Assembly: GCF_003385775.1 (NCBI RefSeq)
Contig: NZ_QRDP01000004.1
Span: 1,411,763 to 1,475,762 of the forward strand
Direction: 5' to 3'
From: Parasphingopyxis lamellibrachiae
Lineage (GTDB): Bacteria > Pseudomonadota > Alphaproteobacteria > Sphingomonadales > Sphingomonadaceae
DNA length: 64,000 nucleotides
Part shown: positions 17,537-24,027 of the stretch, piece after piece
Layout: each line of letters begins with the position of its first letter
Numbering within the stretch: the first letter of the stretch is position 1
Translations under genes and position numbers: made by a program
The notes under the pieces: model-generated
The model's input: only the letters and a program-made list of their open reading frames with translations
Database searches by the model: none
Told to the model about the DNA's origin: nothing

Positions 17537-18184
17537 TCAGCGACTGCTGAGATCGTCCACTTCATTCATGATTTCCTGGATCGCCGTCTTCTCATTGTCG
17601 CTTTCCTGCGTTTGCCGCGGCGCAAGCTTCCCGTCTTCCATGATTTCCTCAAGCGCGGTCCGGCCGCGCGCAACGCGGCTTTTGATTGTGCCGACAGCGC
17701 ATCCGCAAATTTCGGCAGCCTCTTCATAGGCAAAACCGCCGGCCCCAACCAGAATCAGCGCCTCGCGCTGCGTCTCGGGCAATTCCATCAACGCTCTCTG
17801 CAAATCGCCCAATTCGACGTGACGATCCTGGCTAGCCGGTGCGGCGAGCAGTTTGTCGGCGGCAAGATCGTCCCACTCCCCGGTGAACTTTGATCGGCGC
17901 ATCTGCGAGAGAAACAGGTTGCGAAGGATGATGAAGGTCCATGCACGCATGTTGGTGCCGGCCTGGAACCGGCTGCGGGCCGACCAGGCCTTGAGCAATG
18001 TTTCCTGGACAAGATCGTCGGCCGTGTCCCGATTCCCCGACAATGACCGGCCGAAAGCCCTGAGATGCGGGATGACCTCGGCGAGCTGATCTTTGAAATC
18101 GGAATCGCTGAGCGGTTCGGATTCCGCTGCCGCATCATTTGAACTGTCCGCCTTTGAAATTGCAGTACCCCCCGGTAAACTCAT
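17537..18184 (-). CDS. ecfG: General stress response sigma factor EcfG
   Basis: A 215-residue ECF sigma factor of the EcfG group. Region 2 (about 30-100) includes HLRAFGRSLSGNRDTADDLV, the conserved DDLVQET turn and RAWTFIILRNLF. Region 4 (about 125-185) includes LPETQREALILVGAGGFAYE, GTIKSRVARGR. Both end segments are longer than the minimal sigma factor. In alphaproteobacteria it directs stress genes and is held by NepR until phosphorylated PhyR releases it. The AT-rich 5' flank has no clear ribosome-binding site; ATG 18184 is the only good start. The gene lies two genes downstream of phyR on the same strand. Confidence 0.93.
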   Translation of the reverse strand: MSLPGGTAISKADSSNDAAAESEPLSDSDFKDQLAEVIPHLRAFGRSLSGNRDTADDLVQETLLKAWSARSRFQAGTNMRAWTFIILRNLFLSQMRRSKFTGEWDDLAADKLLAAPASQDRHVELGDLQRALMELPETQREALILVGAGGFAYEEAAEICGCAVGTIKSRVARGRTALEEIMEDGKLAPRQTQESDNEKTAIQEIMNEVDDLSSR

Positions 18185-18474: not shown

Positions 18475-19281
18475 TTAGGCAGGCACAGTTGTTTTGTTGA
18501 AGAACAGCGCCTGGGCGATAGCAGTCTTCACCGTCGCATTCTGAAACGGCTTGGTTATCAGAAACGCCGGTTCCGGGCGCTCGCCGGTAAGCAAGCGCTC
18601 GGGAAAAGCGGTAATGAATATGACGGGAACGTCGATTTTCGCCAATATGTCCTGGACGGCGTCAATACCCGAACTGTCATCGGCAAGCTGGATGTCAGCG
18701 AGAACCAGTCCCGGCGTGCGGTTCGCCGCGTCCGCAACGGCTTCGTCCCGCGTCACCGCGATACCCGTTACCGAATGGCCAAGATCCCGAACAATGGATT
18801 CCAGATCCATCGCGATGATCGGCTCATCCTCAATAATTAGAACCTCGGTTTTCAACTGCGCTTCGATCTCGGCGCGCGCCTCCGCGATCAGCGATTCGAC
18901 ATCGCTTTCCGCGCGACCGAGAAGATAGGCGGTTTCCGAATTCGAGAAACCCTCGACCTCGATCAACAACAGCGCCTGTCGTGAAACTTTGTCGATCATG
19001 GCAAGCCGCGCATTGGCGATCGCTTCGCTCTTATGATCGCCTTCCGCCAGCTGCGCGACCGCATGCTCCGCATCTTTGGTCGATGCCCAGATCTCCAGAA
19101 AGGCCCGGTACAGACCAAGTCGCGGATCGACATCTTCGGGAAATGCGCCGGGTTCGGCGACAATCGATTCCAACGTTCGCCTGACGAACACATCGCCCTG
19201 TTTCTGATCGCCGGTCAAAGCACGTGAGAAACGCCTCAAGAGAGAAAGATGTGGCGCAAGCTGCTCACCCAATGACGCCAT
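18475..19281 (-). CDS. phyR: General stress response anti-anti-sigma regulator PhyR
   Basis: A 268-residue response regulator with the PhyR architecture: an N-terminal sigma-like output domain (about 1-140, with ECF region 2 and 4 features such as LLLIEVEGFSNSETAYLLG) and a C-terminal receiver (about 145-260). The receiver has EDEP acid pocket residues, phospho-acceptor Asp196 in LADIQL and FITAFPERLLTG, the FATGUY-type motif, with KPF Lys244. Phosphorylated PhyR binds NepR and frees EcfG. ATG 19281 has GGAGGA as ribosome-binding site. It is divergent from nepR-phyP across 196 bases. Confidence 0.96.
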   Translation of the reverse strand: MASLGEQLAPHLSLLRRFSRALTGDQKQGDVFVRRTLESIVAEPGAFPEDVDPRLGLYRAFLEIWASTKDAEHAVAQLAEGDHKSEAIANARLAMIDKVSRQALLLIEVEGFSNSETAYLLGRAESDVESLIAEARAEIEAQLKTEVLIIEDEPIIAMDLESIVRDLGHSVTGIAVTRDEAVADAANRTPGLVLADIQLADDSSGIDAVQDILAKIDVPVIFITAFPERLLTGERPEPAFLITKPFQNATVKTAIAQALFFNKTTVPA

Positions 19282-19477: not shown

Positions 19478-19681
19478 GTGAGTATGACGGGAATTGAGAT
19501 CTTGGCTTCAGTTGGCAAAAATCTGCGCAAGCCAGACAAGAAAAATATCGGCACAGCTGCGGACACCTCCAAGGACAAGGACGGCGCCGACATTGGAGAT
19601 GCCCTGCGCTCTGCATATGACGAGGCCGTCAGCGAGGATATTCCAGAAGAGATGCTGGATTTACTCGGCAAACTCAATTGA
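19478..19681 (+). CDS. nepR: Anti-sigma factor NepR
   Basis: A 67-residue protein with the canonical NepR core near its C-terminus: IGDALRSAYDEAVSEDIPEE (helix 1 and linker) and MLDLLGKLN (helix 2). NepR binds EcfG in unstressed cells and is taken away by phosphorylated PhyR. The start is GTG 19478 with AGGAGGGG 7 bases upstream; ATG 19484 is the next candidate. phyP follows after 30 bases on the same strand. The N-terminal 35 residues are polar and probably disordered. Confidence 0.9.
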   Translation: MSMTGIEILASVGKNLRKPDKKNIGTAADTSKDKDGADIGDALRSAYDEAVSEDIPEEMLDLLGKLN

Positions 19682-19711: not shown

Positions 19712-21265
19712 ATGACCAGCCGAACCGACAGCCCTCAAAAGCGCCTCAGAAGACTTCCCACCAGTATCAAGACACTTGTCCTGCTAGGTCTCGCGCTTCT
19801 GCCGCTGGGCGCTGTTGCGGTCTTTTCATCGATCAACGCCGCCAACGGAGCCAGAGACAGCCGCTTCGCCGAAGTGAAACTGCTGGCCGAGGTTGGAGCC
19901 AGGCACCTGTCCACCGCGATCTCCCACACGGAGTTCAGCCTGCGATCGACTTTGACAACGCTATCCAGAAGCGAGAATATCGAACGCCAGTGTCAGGACA
20001 CATTGGACGCGGCCGTCGCCGTCGACACCCGAAAACCAACCTTCGCCCTGCTGGACCGGCAAGGCCAACAGATTTGCGCCACCGATGGGTTTATGTCCGG
20101 CCTGATCGAAGACCTGCCGGACAACGGAACCGCCAAAGTAACGCTGGATGCCGACCACGGTCTGATTTTGTTGGCGGAGACAAGCGCCGACGGAAGCCTG
20201 ACCGGGGTTGCCGAACTGACGCGCGAATCTCTTGCCCTTCTGCCGCGCCCCTCGATGCTGGACCGCAATTTCCAGATCGCTTTGTCGCACGATGACGATA
20301 TGATCCTGGTGCGGCCATGGTCCCAAACCGTTTCGGGCGATGCCATTGTGAGTGCGGCCCAACCCGTCGACGGCAGCACTTTTCTGCTGACCGCAAGCTT
20401 TGTGCGCGCGCCGCTGACCTCGGCGGAATTGTTCGGGATCGTGCTTCCGATACTGATGTGGGGCATCGCCGCCTTTCTTGGCTGGATTGCAGTTGTTCAG
20501 CTTCTGATCCGTCCGCTCAAACAACTGCGTCGTGCCGTGGTCCGCCATGCTGAAGGTGAAACTGATTTTGAAATTCCGACGTTTCGGATCTCCGCGATTG
20601 AAATTCAGCAACTCGCACAAGCCTTCGAAAAGGCTTTCGACACGCTCCGCAGTCACGAAGAGCAGCTTGCCATCGGCCTGAAAGAACAAACCCGCCTCAC
20701 CCGGGAGGTCCACCACCGGGTTAAGAACAATCTGCAAATCATCGCCAGCCTTTTGAGCCTACATGCGCGCGCCGCCAAATCCGAAGACAGCGCCGCCGCG
20801 TATGCGTCAATCCAGCGCCGGGTTGATGCACTGGCGATCGTCCAGCGAAATTTGTTTTCCGAACTCGATACCGACAATGGATTGCTGATCCGGCCGGTCA
20901 TTGCGGAACTCGCTTCGGGCCTTCAGCAAAGCGCTCCGCCGAACGTCGAGGTTGCGATCACCCTGGATGTCGACCCGATCCGCGTCAGTCAGGATATCGC
21001 AGCACCGGCGGCGTTCCTCATCACCGAACTGGTTGAACTCGCCATGCTGTCCGGCGGACGGCTCGAAATCGCCCTTTCCGTCCAGGCATTGCCGGATCAG
21101 TGCGCCCGGCTGTCGGTTCGTTCTGCGGCCCTTGCCCGGGCATCGGAACGAAGCTCGTTTCCACGGTATCGGAGGGTATTAACCGGTATGGCGCGTCAAC
21201 TGCAGGCCAGCCTGGACGAAGACGAGTCCGGCACAATATATGCGATATTGATCCCGATATTGTAA
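19712..21265 (+). CDS. phyP: PhyP-type HWE/HisKA_2 sensor protein with degenerate ATPase domain
   Basis: A 517-residue membrane protein. Transmembrane helix 1 (about 22-42), an extracytoplasmic domain, helix 2 (about 245-265), a HAMP-like segment and a HisKA_2 dimerisation domain with EVHHRVKNNLQIIASLLSL (His334/His335) follow in order. The ATP-binding domain is damaged: the N-box reads FLITELVELAML with Leu443 where Asn is expected, and no DxGxG or GLGL box can be seen. PhyP of Sphingomonas is encoded in the stress locus and acts as a negative regulator (phosphatase) of PhyR, which fits a protein that cannot bind ATP well. Position next to nepR supports the call. Confidence 0.82.
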   Translation: MTSRTDSPQKRLRRLPTSIKTLVLLGLALLPLGAVAVFSSINAANGARDSRFAEVKLLAEVGARHLSTAISHTEFSLRSTLTTLSRSENIERQCQDTLDAAVAVDTRKPTFALLDRQGQQICATDGFMSGLIEDLPDNGTAKVTLDADHGLILLAETSADGSLTGVAELTRESLALLPRPSMLDRNFQIALSHDDDMILVRPWSQTVSGDAIVSAAQPVDGSTFLLTASFVRAPLTSAELFGIVLPILMWGIAAFLGWIAVVQLLIRPLKQLRRAVVRHAEGETDFEIPTFRISAIEIQQLAQAFEKAFDTLRSHEEQLAIGLKEQTRLTREVHHRVKNNLQIIASLLSLHARAAKSEDSAAAYASIQRRVDALAIVQRNLFSELDTDNGLLIRPVIAELASGLQQSAPPNVEVAITLDVDPIRVSQDIAAPAAFLITELVELAMLSGGRLEIALSVQALPDQCARLSVRSAALARASERSSFPRYRRVLTGMARQLQASLDEDESGTIYAILIPIL

Positions 21266-21346: not shown

Positions 21347-21371
21347 GGAACCAATCGCGCCGTTCCTCGTT
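21347..21371 (+). promoter_or_regulatory. Perfect sigma-EcfG promoter in the phyP-PLD intergenic region
   Basis: GGAAC (21347-21351), 16 bases, CGTT (21368-21371): a full match to the sigma-EcfG consensus, on the plus strand. The only downstream gene is convergent, so it does not serve a protein gene; it should drive a short RNA ending at the hairpin at 21424-21467. Confidence 0.7.
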
Positions 21372-21377
21372 CTGCTA

Positions 21378-21476
21378 GTCGGATAGTGACCTTTTTGCCC
21401 CCCGCTCTCGCTATCCAAAAATTAGCCCGGAAGCGCCTCCATCCCCCCCGGAAGGCGCTTCCGGGCTTAATAATTT
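21378..21476 (+). ncRNA. Candidate stress-induced small RNA (GsrN-like by analogy)
   Basis: An inferred transcript of about 100 bases from the perfect sigma-EcfG promoter to the 15-bp terminator hairpin. Hairpin 1 pairs 21381-21389 with 21408-21416 and exposes a loop with a run of six C. The terminator hairpin (21424-21467) has a 14-base loop with a run of seven C. There is no good open frame. Caulobacter GsrN is a sigma-T-dependent RNA with a C-rich loop that base-pairs with G-rich mRNA leaders; similarity here is in design, not alignment. Ends are estimates: the start is taken 7 bases after the -10 element. Confidence 0.55.
21424..21467. terminator. Bidirectional 15-bp hairpin terminator
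   Basis: Arms AGCCCGGAAGCGCCT (21424-21438) and its exact complement (21453-21467), loop of 14 bases. On the minus strand it is followed by TAATTTTT, terminating the PLD gene (tat operon end). On the plus strand it is followed by TAATAATTT, ending the candidate small RNA and any phyP read-through. Confidence 0.8.
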
Positions 21477-21535
21477 CCCCGCCCAAACCGCGATAATAAC
21501 CGTCGTTAGAGACCGGCGTTCCCAACCGGAAACGG

Positions 21536-23236
21536 TCAGACCATATTGTCAGGCACATAGAGACGCGAACCGCCGAAGCGGCACGCCCGACCACGTTGAT
21601 AGGGCACGACGAACCCGCGCCGCTTATCCGGCTCGGCAAGGCGGTTTTGCTCCGCCAGGCTGCGCCAGTCCGCCAGCCCGGATGTACCGGAAAGCGCGCC
21701 GTCTGAAAGGCGTGACCACAGCCGGTCGCGGAAGCCCGCAATAACCGCATCCTCCTGCGACCATAAAAAGCCCAGCTCGGTATCCCATTCGAAGCTCCGC
21801 CCGTTGATATTGGCGGAGGACATCAGGCATGCCTGCGTGTCGGCGATCAGCAATTTGGCATGGATATATATGATCCCGGAGCCAAAGGCGGTTCCCCGGC
21901 TGCCCGCGTAATCATGCTCGGCATCGTCGGCCGGTTCGTCGCGAACCAGCGTAAACAGCCCCACCCGGTCCGGGCCAACAGCTTTGAGGAGACGACTCAG
22001 AGCCGTGGCCTGGAGATATTCGCCATGACGATGGGCGGGATTGTCGCCAGCGCCCAGGAAGGCGATTTCCTCTGGCACATTGGCTATCAGGATAATGACA
22101 TCGAGCCCGGGATTACGGCGTAGGCTCTCGATCACCCAATCTGCGGCCTCCCGCGACCGGAAAAATTGCGCTTCGATATAGAGCAGATTCTGGGCCGAAC
22201 GGATCAGGTTGCGATGAGCTGCTTTGAGTTCGCGGATGTCGGGAACCGGCCCGAGCGCGAATATGGATGTCGCATCGCGCGACCGCGTCCGCAGGAGCTG
22301 GGTAGTGGCCTTGCCTTCGCTCAGCGATTCTCCCTGTTCCGGTGCTATCGCCTCGCTGAGCGGACCGGCCGCAATAGTGCGTGACGCATCGCTGGTCCAC
22401 TGGTCGACAATCTCGCGAAAACGCGGCAGTTCGAGATTCCAGAGCTCGGTGAAATTGCGGGCTGCGTCAGCGGCCAGCGGCCCTGCGACAAAGGCTGAAA
22501 GATCGTGCCAGGTTTCGTCTGCCGGTCGATCATGCTTGGCATCGTCCCAGCGACGTTCGTCCAGGTCAAGCCCGCCGATAAACGCGGTTTTCGCGTCAAT
22601 TATCGCGCTTTTCTGATGATAGGTTGCCGGCCACAGTCTCGGCGGCGGCCCGGACTTCCATCCGGCTGGTCGGTCGCCTTCCCAGTGCAGCCATCGCCAC
22701 AAGCCCGGGCGCACTTCGAAAGCGTGTCGCACATGGCTGGATTTATCCAGAAGGTGCCGTATCAGTTTGCGGACCCGCTTGCGCAGGGCGAACCGCAATA
22801 TCTGCCGCCAGAACCATCCGATTTCACCGGCATGCTGGACAACTATGATCTGCAGCTGTTCCTGTTCCGCTTCGGTCAGTGCCGAGCGTACATCCTGGAT
22901 CTGATTAAAACTGCTCCAGGATCCCGCATGAAGGTCATTCGCCATTACGGGTTCGAAATCCGCCAGCAGCATCCGAACTTCGACACCGCGTTTTACCGTG
23001 TCGCGGATGAGCCCCGCCCAATCTTCGAGCCCCTTGGCGCGCGCTGCATCGGATCGCAGTTTCGTCGATGGGTCGAAGATGCGGAATGCCAGCCAGACAC
23101 TGCGCTCCGCGGCGAGCATTTCTTCTTCGAGCCTGGGATACATTTCCGCCGAATCGATCAGCGGTTTCACCCGGCACCCGTCGCGAACCGGAAAACCCTC
23201 CCCCTGCTCGCGTAGGAAGAGCAAGTCGCGGTTCAA
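21536..23236 (-). CDS. Phospholipase D-like/cardiolipin synthase family protein
   Basis: A 566-residue protein with two PLD phosphodiesterase motifs. The first is HQKSAIIDAKTAFIGGLDL, around residues 230-250; the second is IHAKLLIADTQACLMSSAN, around 465-485 with following NGRS. HxKxxxxD is intact in both. There is no long hydrophobic N-terminus, unlike typical cardiolipin synthase A. It would transfer phosphatidyl groups or hydrolyse phosphodiesters at the membrane surface. The start is TTG at 23236, overlapping the tatC stop by 4 bases, so it is probably the last gene of the scpA-scpB-tatABC transcript. The substrate is unknown. Confidence 0.82.
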   Translation of the reverse strand: MNRDLLFLREQGEGFPVRDGCRVKPLIDSAEMYPRLEEEMLAAERSVWLAFRIFDPSTKLRSDAARAKGLEDWAGLIRDTVKRGVEVRMLLADFEPVMANDLHAGSWSSFNQIQDVRSALTEAEQEQLQIIVVQHAGEIGWFWRQILRFALRKRVRKLIRHLLDKSSHVRHAFEVRPGLWRWLHWEGDRPAGWKSGPPPRLWPATYHQKSAIIDAKTAFIGGLDLDERRWDDAKHDRPADETWHDLSAFVAGPLAADAARNFTELWNLELPRFREIVDQWTSDASRTIAAGPLSEAIAPEQGESLSEGKATTQLLRTRSRDATSIFALGPVPDIRELKAAHRNLIRSAQNLLYIEAQFFRSREAADWVIESLRRNPGLDVIILIANVPEEIAFLGAGDNPAHRHGEYLQATALSRLLKAVGPDRVGLFTLVRDEPADDAEHDYAGSRGTAFGSGIIYIHAKLLIADTQACLMSSANINGRSFEWDTELGFLWSQEDAVIAGFRDRLWSRLSDGALSGTSGLADWRSLAEQNRLAEPDKRRGFVVPYQRGRACRFGGSRLYVPDNMV

Positions 23237-24027
23237 GTCTCTTTGTCCTTTTTGCCGCGCCTGTCCGTGAACCAGATAATCACGAGGGTCATTTCAAAGA
23301 GCAGCAATAGCGGAACAGCCAACATCAGCTGGGTAACCGGGTCGGGCGGCGTGAAGATCGCGGCGATGACGAAAACGCCCACGATGATATATTTGCGTGC
23401 GCGGATCAGCTGCGCCCGGCCGACAAGGCCCGCGCGGTTGAGCAGCAGCAGCAGCACCGGCAGCAAAAACGCCAGTCCGAAAACGATGATGAACCGCATG
23501 ACCAGAGACAGATATTCTCCTATCGCTGGCAGCGCCTCCTGATCCAACCCGCTCACCTCCCCTTGATAATCAAGGAAAAATTCAAATGCCAACGGCATGA
23601 CGACGAAATAGGCGAGCGCCGCACCAAGCGTGAACAGGACGGGCGTCGCAAACAGAAAGGGTAAAAAAGCGCCACGCTCATTCTTGTACAGGCCGGGCGC
23701 GACGAACAGCCATATCTGACAGGCGATCAGCGGAAAGGCGATGACGAACGCCCCGAAAATGCCGACCTTTATCTCGACGAAAAACGCCTCGTAGAGCTGG
23801 GTATAGATCAGCCTGCCCTGCCCGGGCGGAAAGGCTTCCTGCAACGGATGCACGAGAAAGGCGAAAATCTCCGTCGCGAAATAGAAGCAGAAGCCGAATG
23901 CGATGATGAAGCCGAGCACACACCATAAGAGGCGATTCCGCAATTCGATCAGATGATCGAGCAGCGGCGCCGTGCTGGCATCGACTTCGTCGATCTCTTC
24001 GGGTTCGGTCTGCAATTCGCTGCTCAT
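23233..24027 (-). CDS. tatC: Sec-independent protein translocase TatC
   Basis: A 264-residue polytopic protein with six transmembrane helices. Conserved marks are LLDHLIELRNRLLW at the N-terminal cytoplasmic segment, the periplasmic FVEIKVG and the FVAPGLYKNER loop, and TPPDPVTQLMLAVPLLLLFE near the last helices. TatC receives twin-arginine signal peptides. ATG overlaps the tatB stop by 4 bases. An acidic 18-residue N-terminal extension precedes the conserved start. Confidence 0.97.
   Translation of the reverse strand: MSSELQTEPEEIDEVDASTAPLLDHLIELRNRLLWCVLGFIIAFGFCFYFATEIFAFLVHPLQEAFPPGQGRLIYTQLYEAFFVEIKVGIFGAFVIAFPLIACQIWLFVAPGLYKNERGAFLPFLFATPVLFTLGAALAYFVVMPLAFEFFLDYQGEVSGLDQEALPAIGEYLSLVMRFIIVFGLAFLLPVLLLLLNRAGLVGRAQLIRARKYIIVGVFVIAAIFTPPDPVTQLMLAVPLLLLFEMTLVIIWFTDRRGKKDKET

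Follow-up and report, generated by a model that had tools for sequence, protein, structure and literature searches.

A conserved, predicted small RNA gene with an EcfG-type promoter beside the general stress response locus of sphingomonads

Introduction

The closest described counterpart of the element analysed here is the Caulobacter small RNA (sRNA) GsrN, which activates katG and base-pairs with G-rich sites through its C-rich 5' loop (PMC5869019). According to the main text of the same paper, BLASTn hits of GsrN are confined to the Caulobacteraceae, and the 2018 survey saw no apparent gsrN-like gene in Erythrobacter litoralis; the word 'sphingomonad' does not occur in that text (PMC5869019). 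For Sphingomonas melonis Fr1, a model organism for the general stress response (GSR), the motif of the sigma factor EcfG has been reported as GGAAC-N17-20-GTT, and the main text of this EcfG transcriptome paper contains none of the terms 'sRNA', 'small RNA' and 'non-coding' (PMC6599016). PhyP of the same strain is encoded at the phyR locus and has been renamed PhyT (PMC5898713). Several sRNAs of Zymomonas mobilis, the Zms RNAs, have been detected by Northern blot (PMC6970203, PMC7064620). In the passages of the open-access literature available to us, we found no description of an RNA of the kind presented below at a sphingomonad GSR locus.

Here, we analysed a stretch of 64,000 nucleotides of the Parasphingopyxis lamellibrachiae genome (contig NZ_QRDP01000004.1, positions 1,411,763 to 1,475,762), hereafter called the window. 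An initial annotation had pointed to a stress-induced regulatory RNA of GsrN-like design, encoded next to its own regulators. Our results suggest that no other explanation accounts for this element nearly as well as a conserved sRNA gene preceded by an EcfG-type promoter.

Results and discussion

The element and its genomic setting

Pfam searches demonstrated that the window carries a complete GSR locus (Table 1). Position and domains suggest the name PhyP/PhyT for the membrane protein encoded beside nepR, in which Pfam found no match to an ATPase domain. The element lies between this gene and the convergent gene for a phospholipase D. The gap of 270 bases given in the initial annotation was confirmed, extending from 21265, where the kinase-type gene ends, to the phospholipase D stop (21536). 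The EcfG consensus match proved correct to the base, with GGAAC at 21347-21351 and CGTT at 21368-21371 separated by 16 nucleotides. Likewise, both hairpins were found where they had been placed: the stem of hairpin 1 joins 21381-21389 with 21408-21416 by nine pairs including one G-U and encloses a loop at 21390-21407, while hairpin 2 joins 21424-21438 with 21453-21467 by 15 perfect pairs. The runs of six to seven C noticed in the loops are a C6 in loop 1 and a C7 in loop 2 (21443-21449). Folding of 21375-21480 on the forward strand yielded -46.1 kcal/mol (z = -7.2), a value equalled by none of 200 shuffles, and 21379-21470, within the predicted sRNA, reached z = -7.5. Rfam returned no match across the window; a search of the gap only gave four hits with E values of 1.2 to 3.6, every one of them far under the gathering score.

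Table 1 Window coordinates of the predicted sRNA gene, its parts and the neighbouring genes.
Feature	Position	Strand	Basis
EcfG-type sigma factor	17537..18184	-	Sigma70_r2, Sigma70_r4_2, PhyR_sigma2; name from phyR-nepR locus position
PhyR anti-anti-sigma response regulator	18475..19281	-	PF22029, PF22233, Response_reg
NepR anti-sigma factor	19478..19681	+	PF18557, E 9.6e-10
PhyP/PhyT-like membrane histidine-kinase-type protein	19712..21265	+	HisKA_2, HWE_HK
EcfG-type promoter GGAAC-N16-CGTT	21347..21371	+	sequence; 79 of 80 listed named loci; motif only
Predicted sRNA, about 90-100 nt	21379..21472	+	ends inferred from promoter and terminator; fold, model matches, covariation
Hairpin 1 (5'), 9-bp stem, 18-nt loop CCTTTTTGCCCCCCGCTC	21381..21416	+	fold; C run in copies
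C6 tract of loop 1, presumed seed	21398..21403	+	invariant columns in 17-sequence alignment
Hairpin 2, terminator-like, perfect 15-bp stem, C7 in loop	21424..21467	+	sequence, fold, covariation
Phospholipase D-like gene, between sRNA and tatC	21536..23236	-	PLDc_2, PLDc
tatC, recurrent convergent downstream neighbour in relatives	23233..24027	-	PF00902, E 1.2e-72

Distribution and relation to GsrN

A blastn search of 60 relatives detected the element in 17, including all ten genomes of the genus Parasphingopyxis. The initial annotation had also proposed a covariance search within the Sphingomonadales, and this search was productive: model R1 had matches with an E value of 0.01 or better in 139 of the 397 genomes from the order, with the weakest of these matches unconvincing on reading, and the broader model R2, built on an alignment (A4) that includes two antisense rows, matched 94 of 199 sampled genomes of the family (45 of 91 genera). 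By our count from the listing, 78 of these 94 genomes reached at least 50 bits, while about half of the sampled family genera carry no copy detectable with R2. A scan of species genomes for the core of loop 1 yielded at least 120 stretches, of which 80 were listed and serve below as the named loci counted for promoter and neighbours. As an exact pattern of the loop core was used to retrieve them, conservation of the loop is built into this set. Their labels are those of Sphingomonadales genera or broader names of metagenome bins, and many Sphingomonas genomes are represented. The initial annotation had staked its proposal on the conservation of promoter and hairpins in related genomes, and this conservation turned out to be strong.

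In 18 genomes of the family that gave no match in the earlier searches the phyR locus is arranged differently. Seventeen of these are absent from the listed R2 matches, and the remaining one (G033) carries a diverged copy elsewhere. Some of the 18 may belong to Erythrobacter, which would fit the remark on E. litoralis cited above.

Two further observations concern other C-rich elements. Hits in family f5 of the order (L068-L071) possess a C-rich terminator loop, yet no GGAAC in the upstream bases printed, and were rejected as relatives; they represent a different conserved two-hairpin RNA. In G028, a genome without a match to the window RNA, the bases beside phyR contain a GGAAC promoter and, downstream of it, a C6 tract and a strong hairpin with a T6 tail (L244, oriented position about 7018); this could be a further, unrelated C-rich stress RNA.

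Could the RNA be orthologous to Caulobacter GsrN, with the two sequences having diverged past recognition? Such an origin would be compatible with our preferred explanation, and promoter class, C6 tract in the 5' loop and the habit of lying at the GSR locus are all as described for GsrN (PMC5869019). Against it, R1 had hits in ten of 389 genomes of the class, four in the RNA's own family and six elsewhere. The best hit outside the family (37.1 bits; L209 in G512, a member of another family of the class) shows two hairpins with C-rich loops, but GGAAC is absent from the 100 upstream bases read. Furthermore, katG (TIGR00198, E 1e-50) was not found in this genome or in the relative G003, neither of which gave a first-look candidate, and none of the two first-look candidates in the draft genome G001 passed the threshold. 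All three Parasphingopyxis genomes carry the RNA, and we therefore do not regard katG as its target here; with katG not found in the genome, the targets should at least partly differ from those of GsrN. Taken together, we regard orthology as possible, though less likely than not. Membership of the GsrN family is unproven, and the likeness appears to be one of design. Of the GsrN-like design claimed initially, the promoter, the 5' loop with six to seven C and the position at the GSR locus hold up, with the qualification on targets just given.

Candidate targets

A sequence pattern for partners of loop 1 matched 63 sites compared to 48 for the reversed control, and a stricter pattern 24 compared to 14, with the RNA's own complement counted in both cases. 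Since these patterns just modestly exceed the control, G tracts are not broadly enriched. Judged by the geometry of open reading frames (ORFs), one of the 24 strict sites precedes a plausible gene by no more than 60 nt; L335, another of them, is located 95 nt before an ORF of 354 amino acids, yet inside an opposing ORF of 459 amino acids. The sole zero-mismatch site for loop 1 besides the RNA itself was rejected, as it falls inside a coding sequence, presumably purU. Among 54 leaders across the window, none contains a G6.

The best candidate target within the genus is the leader of a gene for a presumably secreted protein of 365 amino acids with a signal-like N terminus and a DUF11 match (E 2e-4) under Pfam's cut-off (leaders L303-L308; minus strand of G000:C1 at about 315566), and we consider this pairing plausible but unproven. 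After the leaders had been oriented by script, a block of 17 nt, GCGGACCGGGGGGUGAA, was found to be invariant in all six orthologues. The G6 of the leader, within GGGGGGUGAA, is carried in a conserved hairpin whose stem shows a compensatory two-sided change in one of the six species. Duplexes between each leader and loop 1 of its own species reached -22.9 to -27.6 kcal/mol, values matched by letter-shuffled leaders in 2 to 30 out of 500 trials; part of the G6 is placed in a weak inner helix by the predicted leader fold. At five loci a neighbouring paralogue has a G6 8 or 9 nt ahead of the ATG read as its start. The leader loci L303, L306 and L308 had no family match in Rfam, and the leader motif, searched with two mismatches in 199 family genomes, gave noise among the matches listed. 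The gene occurs in six of the ten Parasphingopyxis genomes and the RNA in all ten, so it would not be the sole target.

We also considered feedback on ecfG. At the ecfG start of the window (about 18165-18175, minus strand) a G6 is complementary to loop 1. This candidate was rejected, as the tract is not conserved: G5 or more occurs in 14 of 85 start regions, which have script-chosen starts, exclude regions below 55% identity, shorter than 80 nt or identical, and include some genera that lack the RNA. The genus itself speaks against the rejection, as two of its five regions (the window and L124 of P. marina) hold a G6, at different positions.

These target statistics are weak, and two C-rich loops in a short RNA would suit repeated protein binding. 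The element might hence be a real EcfG-driven RNA that binds a protein or serves as an RNA sponge instead of pairing with leaders. GsrN, however, uses its C-rich loop to pair with a G tract of katG (PMC5869019), and the conserved G6 hairpin of the DUF11-like leader is complementary to loop 1. We consequently hold protein binding or sponging to be improbable and favour a base-pairing RNA.

A probable independent gene with its own predicted promoter

In 73 of the 80 listed named loci, a PhyP gene lies upstream on the same strand; among the seven others, L132 and L144 offer less than 200 nt of upstream sequence. Downstream and on the opposite strand, tblastn identified tatC in 66 of the 80, with some of the others cut by the end of the stretch. 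A phospholipase D gene at this spot, as in the window, was found in three of the 80 loci and also in L399. Elsewhere the upstream gene encodes MgtE (L048), an amidohydrolase (L049, L065) or a cell-wall hydrolase (L067). At these four loci tblastn (threshold 1e-4, stretches reaching up to about 8 kb to either side) detected no GSR gene, yet tatC is still in place, together with the two hairpins and a GGAAC promoter. Promoter, hairpins and tatC likewise remain in L398 and L401. Because promoter, RNA and usually tatC persist without the GSR genes, we regard the element as an independent gene and neither as the tail of phyP nor as a mere terminator. Adjacency to the GSR locus is common, not universal, and tatC is the other recurrent neighbour. 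The initial claim that the RNA lies next to its own regulators thus holds for the window and for most of the named loci, and fails in some relatives.

Genomes of genus g6 harbour a second copy at another site, where it has a GGAAC promoter of its own (L057, L390, L391). An apparent paralogue of the same two-hairpin C-loop design, again with its own GGAAC promoter, was observed at another locus of G021 (L392). In three AT-richer genomes of genus g25 (L395-L397; about 2.1 Mb, with 44-47% GC in the stretches analysed), probably Zymomonas, a much diverged copy is flanked by a PhyP-like gene and tatC.

The promoter pattern with spacings of 15-18 matches five times in the window compared to a shuffle mean of 1.62, and five matches were reached in 4 of 100 shuffles. 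Taken alone, the pattern is weak evidence. Among the listed named loci, GGAAC-N17/18-GTT occurs upstream in 79 of 80, ending 24-29 nt before the loop core; the corresponding shares are 0.5% for shuffled upstream regions and 1.3% for other 90-nt windows from the same loci. The single exception, L135, has GGAAC without GTT at the required spacing.

In a structure-blind alignment of 17 sequences, 13 of 24 pairs vary on both sides and pairing is intact in 96.5% of cells, levels of covariation and pairing reached by none of 500 shuffles. Twelve of the covarying pairs belong to the 15 of hairpin 2, one to hairpin 1. A larger, structure-fitted alignment (A2), which as counted included three antisense rows, shows two-sided variation in 22 of 24 pairs, with the reservation that such alignments favour the structure. 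One sampling covered 95 sources, picked to thin near-duplicates and including 61 of the 80 named loci; 94 of the 98 rows of A2 are usable after removal of the three antisense rows and the truncated L163. Conservation is also high within stem 1 (mean top-base fraction 0.84 compared to 0.80 for loop 1), and the upper part of stem 2 is most variable. As covariation mostly concerns hairpin 2 and stem 1 is conserved, the structure of hairpin 1 is less independently supported.

Close relatives hold the C tract of loop 1 within UUUUGC6-7GCUC. For a recount of the C tracts we set aside 60 of the 94 usable rows and kept the 34 that had not been fetched by the loop pattern; a C run of at least six was present in loop 1 of 32 and in loop 2 of 32 of these copies. 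Diverged copies (L048-L050, L054, L057, L065) have kept the C tract while the surrounding bases changed.

These results bear on the simplest alternative, namely that the element is nothing more than a 3' untranslated region with a bidirectional terminator shared by the two convergent genes. Besides the convergent genes, the flanks of hairpin 2 in the aligned copies speak for it, being A-rich on the 5' and T-rich on the 3' side. The better T run after the stem is that of the minus strand, so hairpin 2 may terminate both convergent transcripts. On the forward strand the tail of the window copy (UUAAUAAUUU) forms a poor U tract, the tails of the 94 aligned copies have on average 3.7 T in the first eight bases and the strict terminator scan did not include hairpin 2 among its sites; of the 15-bp terminator hairpin claimed initially, the hairpin stands, with these qualifications on its terminator role. 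A terminator would need neither an EcfG-type promoter at a near-fixed distance, as in 79 of the 80 listed loci, nor a separate 5' hairpin and a persistent C tract, and the element persists beside other upstream genes. We therefore judge this alternative very unlikely and return to the sRNA gene. A chance match, to which the five occurrences of the promoter pattern in the window might point, is contradicted by conservation and covariation and can be dismissed.

Proposed function and comparison with known RNAs

We consider it likely that the element is an independent sRNA gene of the GSR, predicted to give rise to an EcfG-driven base-pairing RNA that works like GsrN. Upon stress, PhyR would release EcfG from NepR, following the pathway established in relatives. 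EcfG would then transcribe an RNA of about 95 nt from the predicted promoter, and folding and covariation suggest that this RNA forms a 5' hairpin with the tract of six to seven C in its loop and a 3' hairpin with a C-tract loop. As reported for GsrN, the C-rich loops may pair with G-rich tracts of mRNA leaders, and by the same analogy the pairing may alter translation or stability of the target mRNAs. In Parasphingopyxis, the DUF11-like leader with its GGGGGGUGAA hairpin would be the best candidate partner. A more specific proposal is that the sRNA with its two C loops constitutes a post-transcriptional, mainly repressive arm of the GSR, tatC-anchored, katG-free and represented in some genera by a second EcfG-driven copy, which silences surface-protein genes of Parasphingopyxis via the G6 leader hairpin; this we put forward tentatively, as a speculation with less in its favour than against it. 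A conserved RNA at a single locus with a predicted promoter and seed makes post-transcriptional control of the GSR directly testable.

How does the RNA compare with described systems? Zymomonas mobilis belongs to the same family; its Zms RNAs are detected sRNAs, whereas the window RNA is a predicted one, and one of them could be the same RNA as the diverged g25 copy. Unlike GsrN, the sphingomonad RNA keeps a C tract in the terminator loop, adjoins tatC and occurs in a genome in which katG was not found. Further traits of GsrN in Caulobacter are processing to a stable 5' isoform, stabilisation of the full-length RNA by Hfq and a stress survival phenotype. GsrN-like RNAs predicted in Rhizobiaceae and elsewhere share with it the EcfG site, the proximity to the GSR locus and an exposed C-rich 5' loop, and some of them are backed by transcription data, in contrast to the window RNA with its predicted status (PMC5869019). 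As stated in the main text of that paper, GsrN homologues mostly lie near ecfG-nepR-phyR, like the window RNA, with C. crescentus as the exception (PMC5869019). Of the features described for GsrN-like RNAs, three were found in the window, namely an EcfG-type promoter motif, closeness to the GSR locus and a 5' hairpin with a C6 loop. With GsrN of Caulobacter crescentus itself, the predicted RNA shares an EcfG/SigT-type promoter and a 5' loop with six tandem C (PMC5869019), suggesting that the C-loop design recurs in genomes missing katG.
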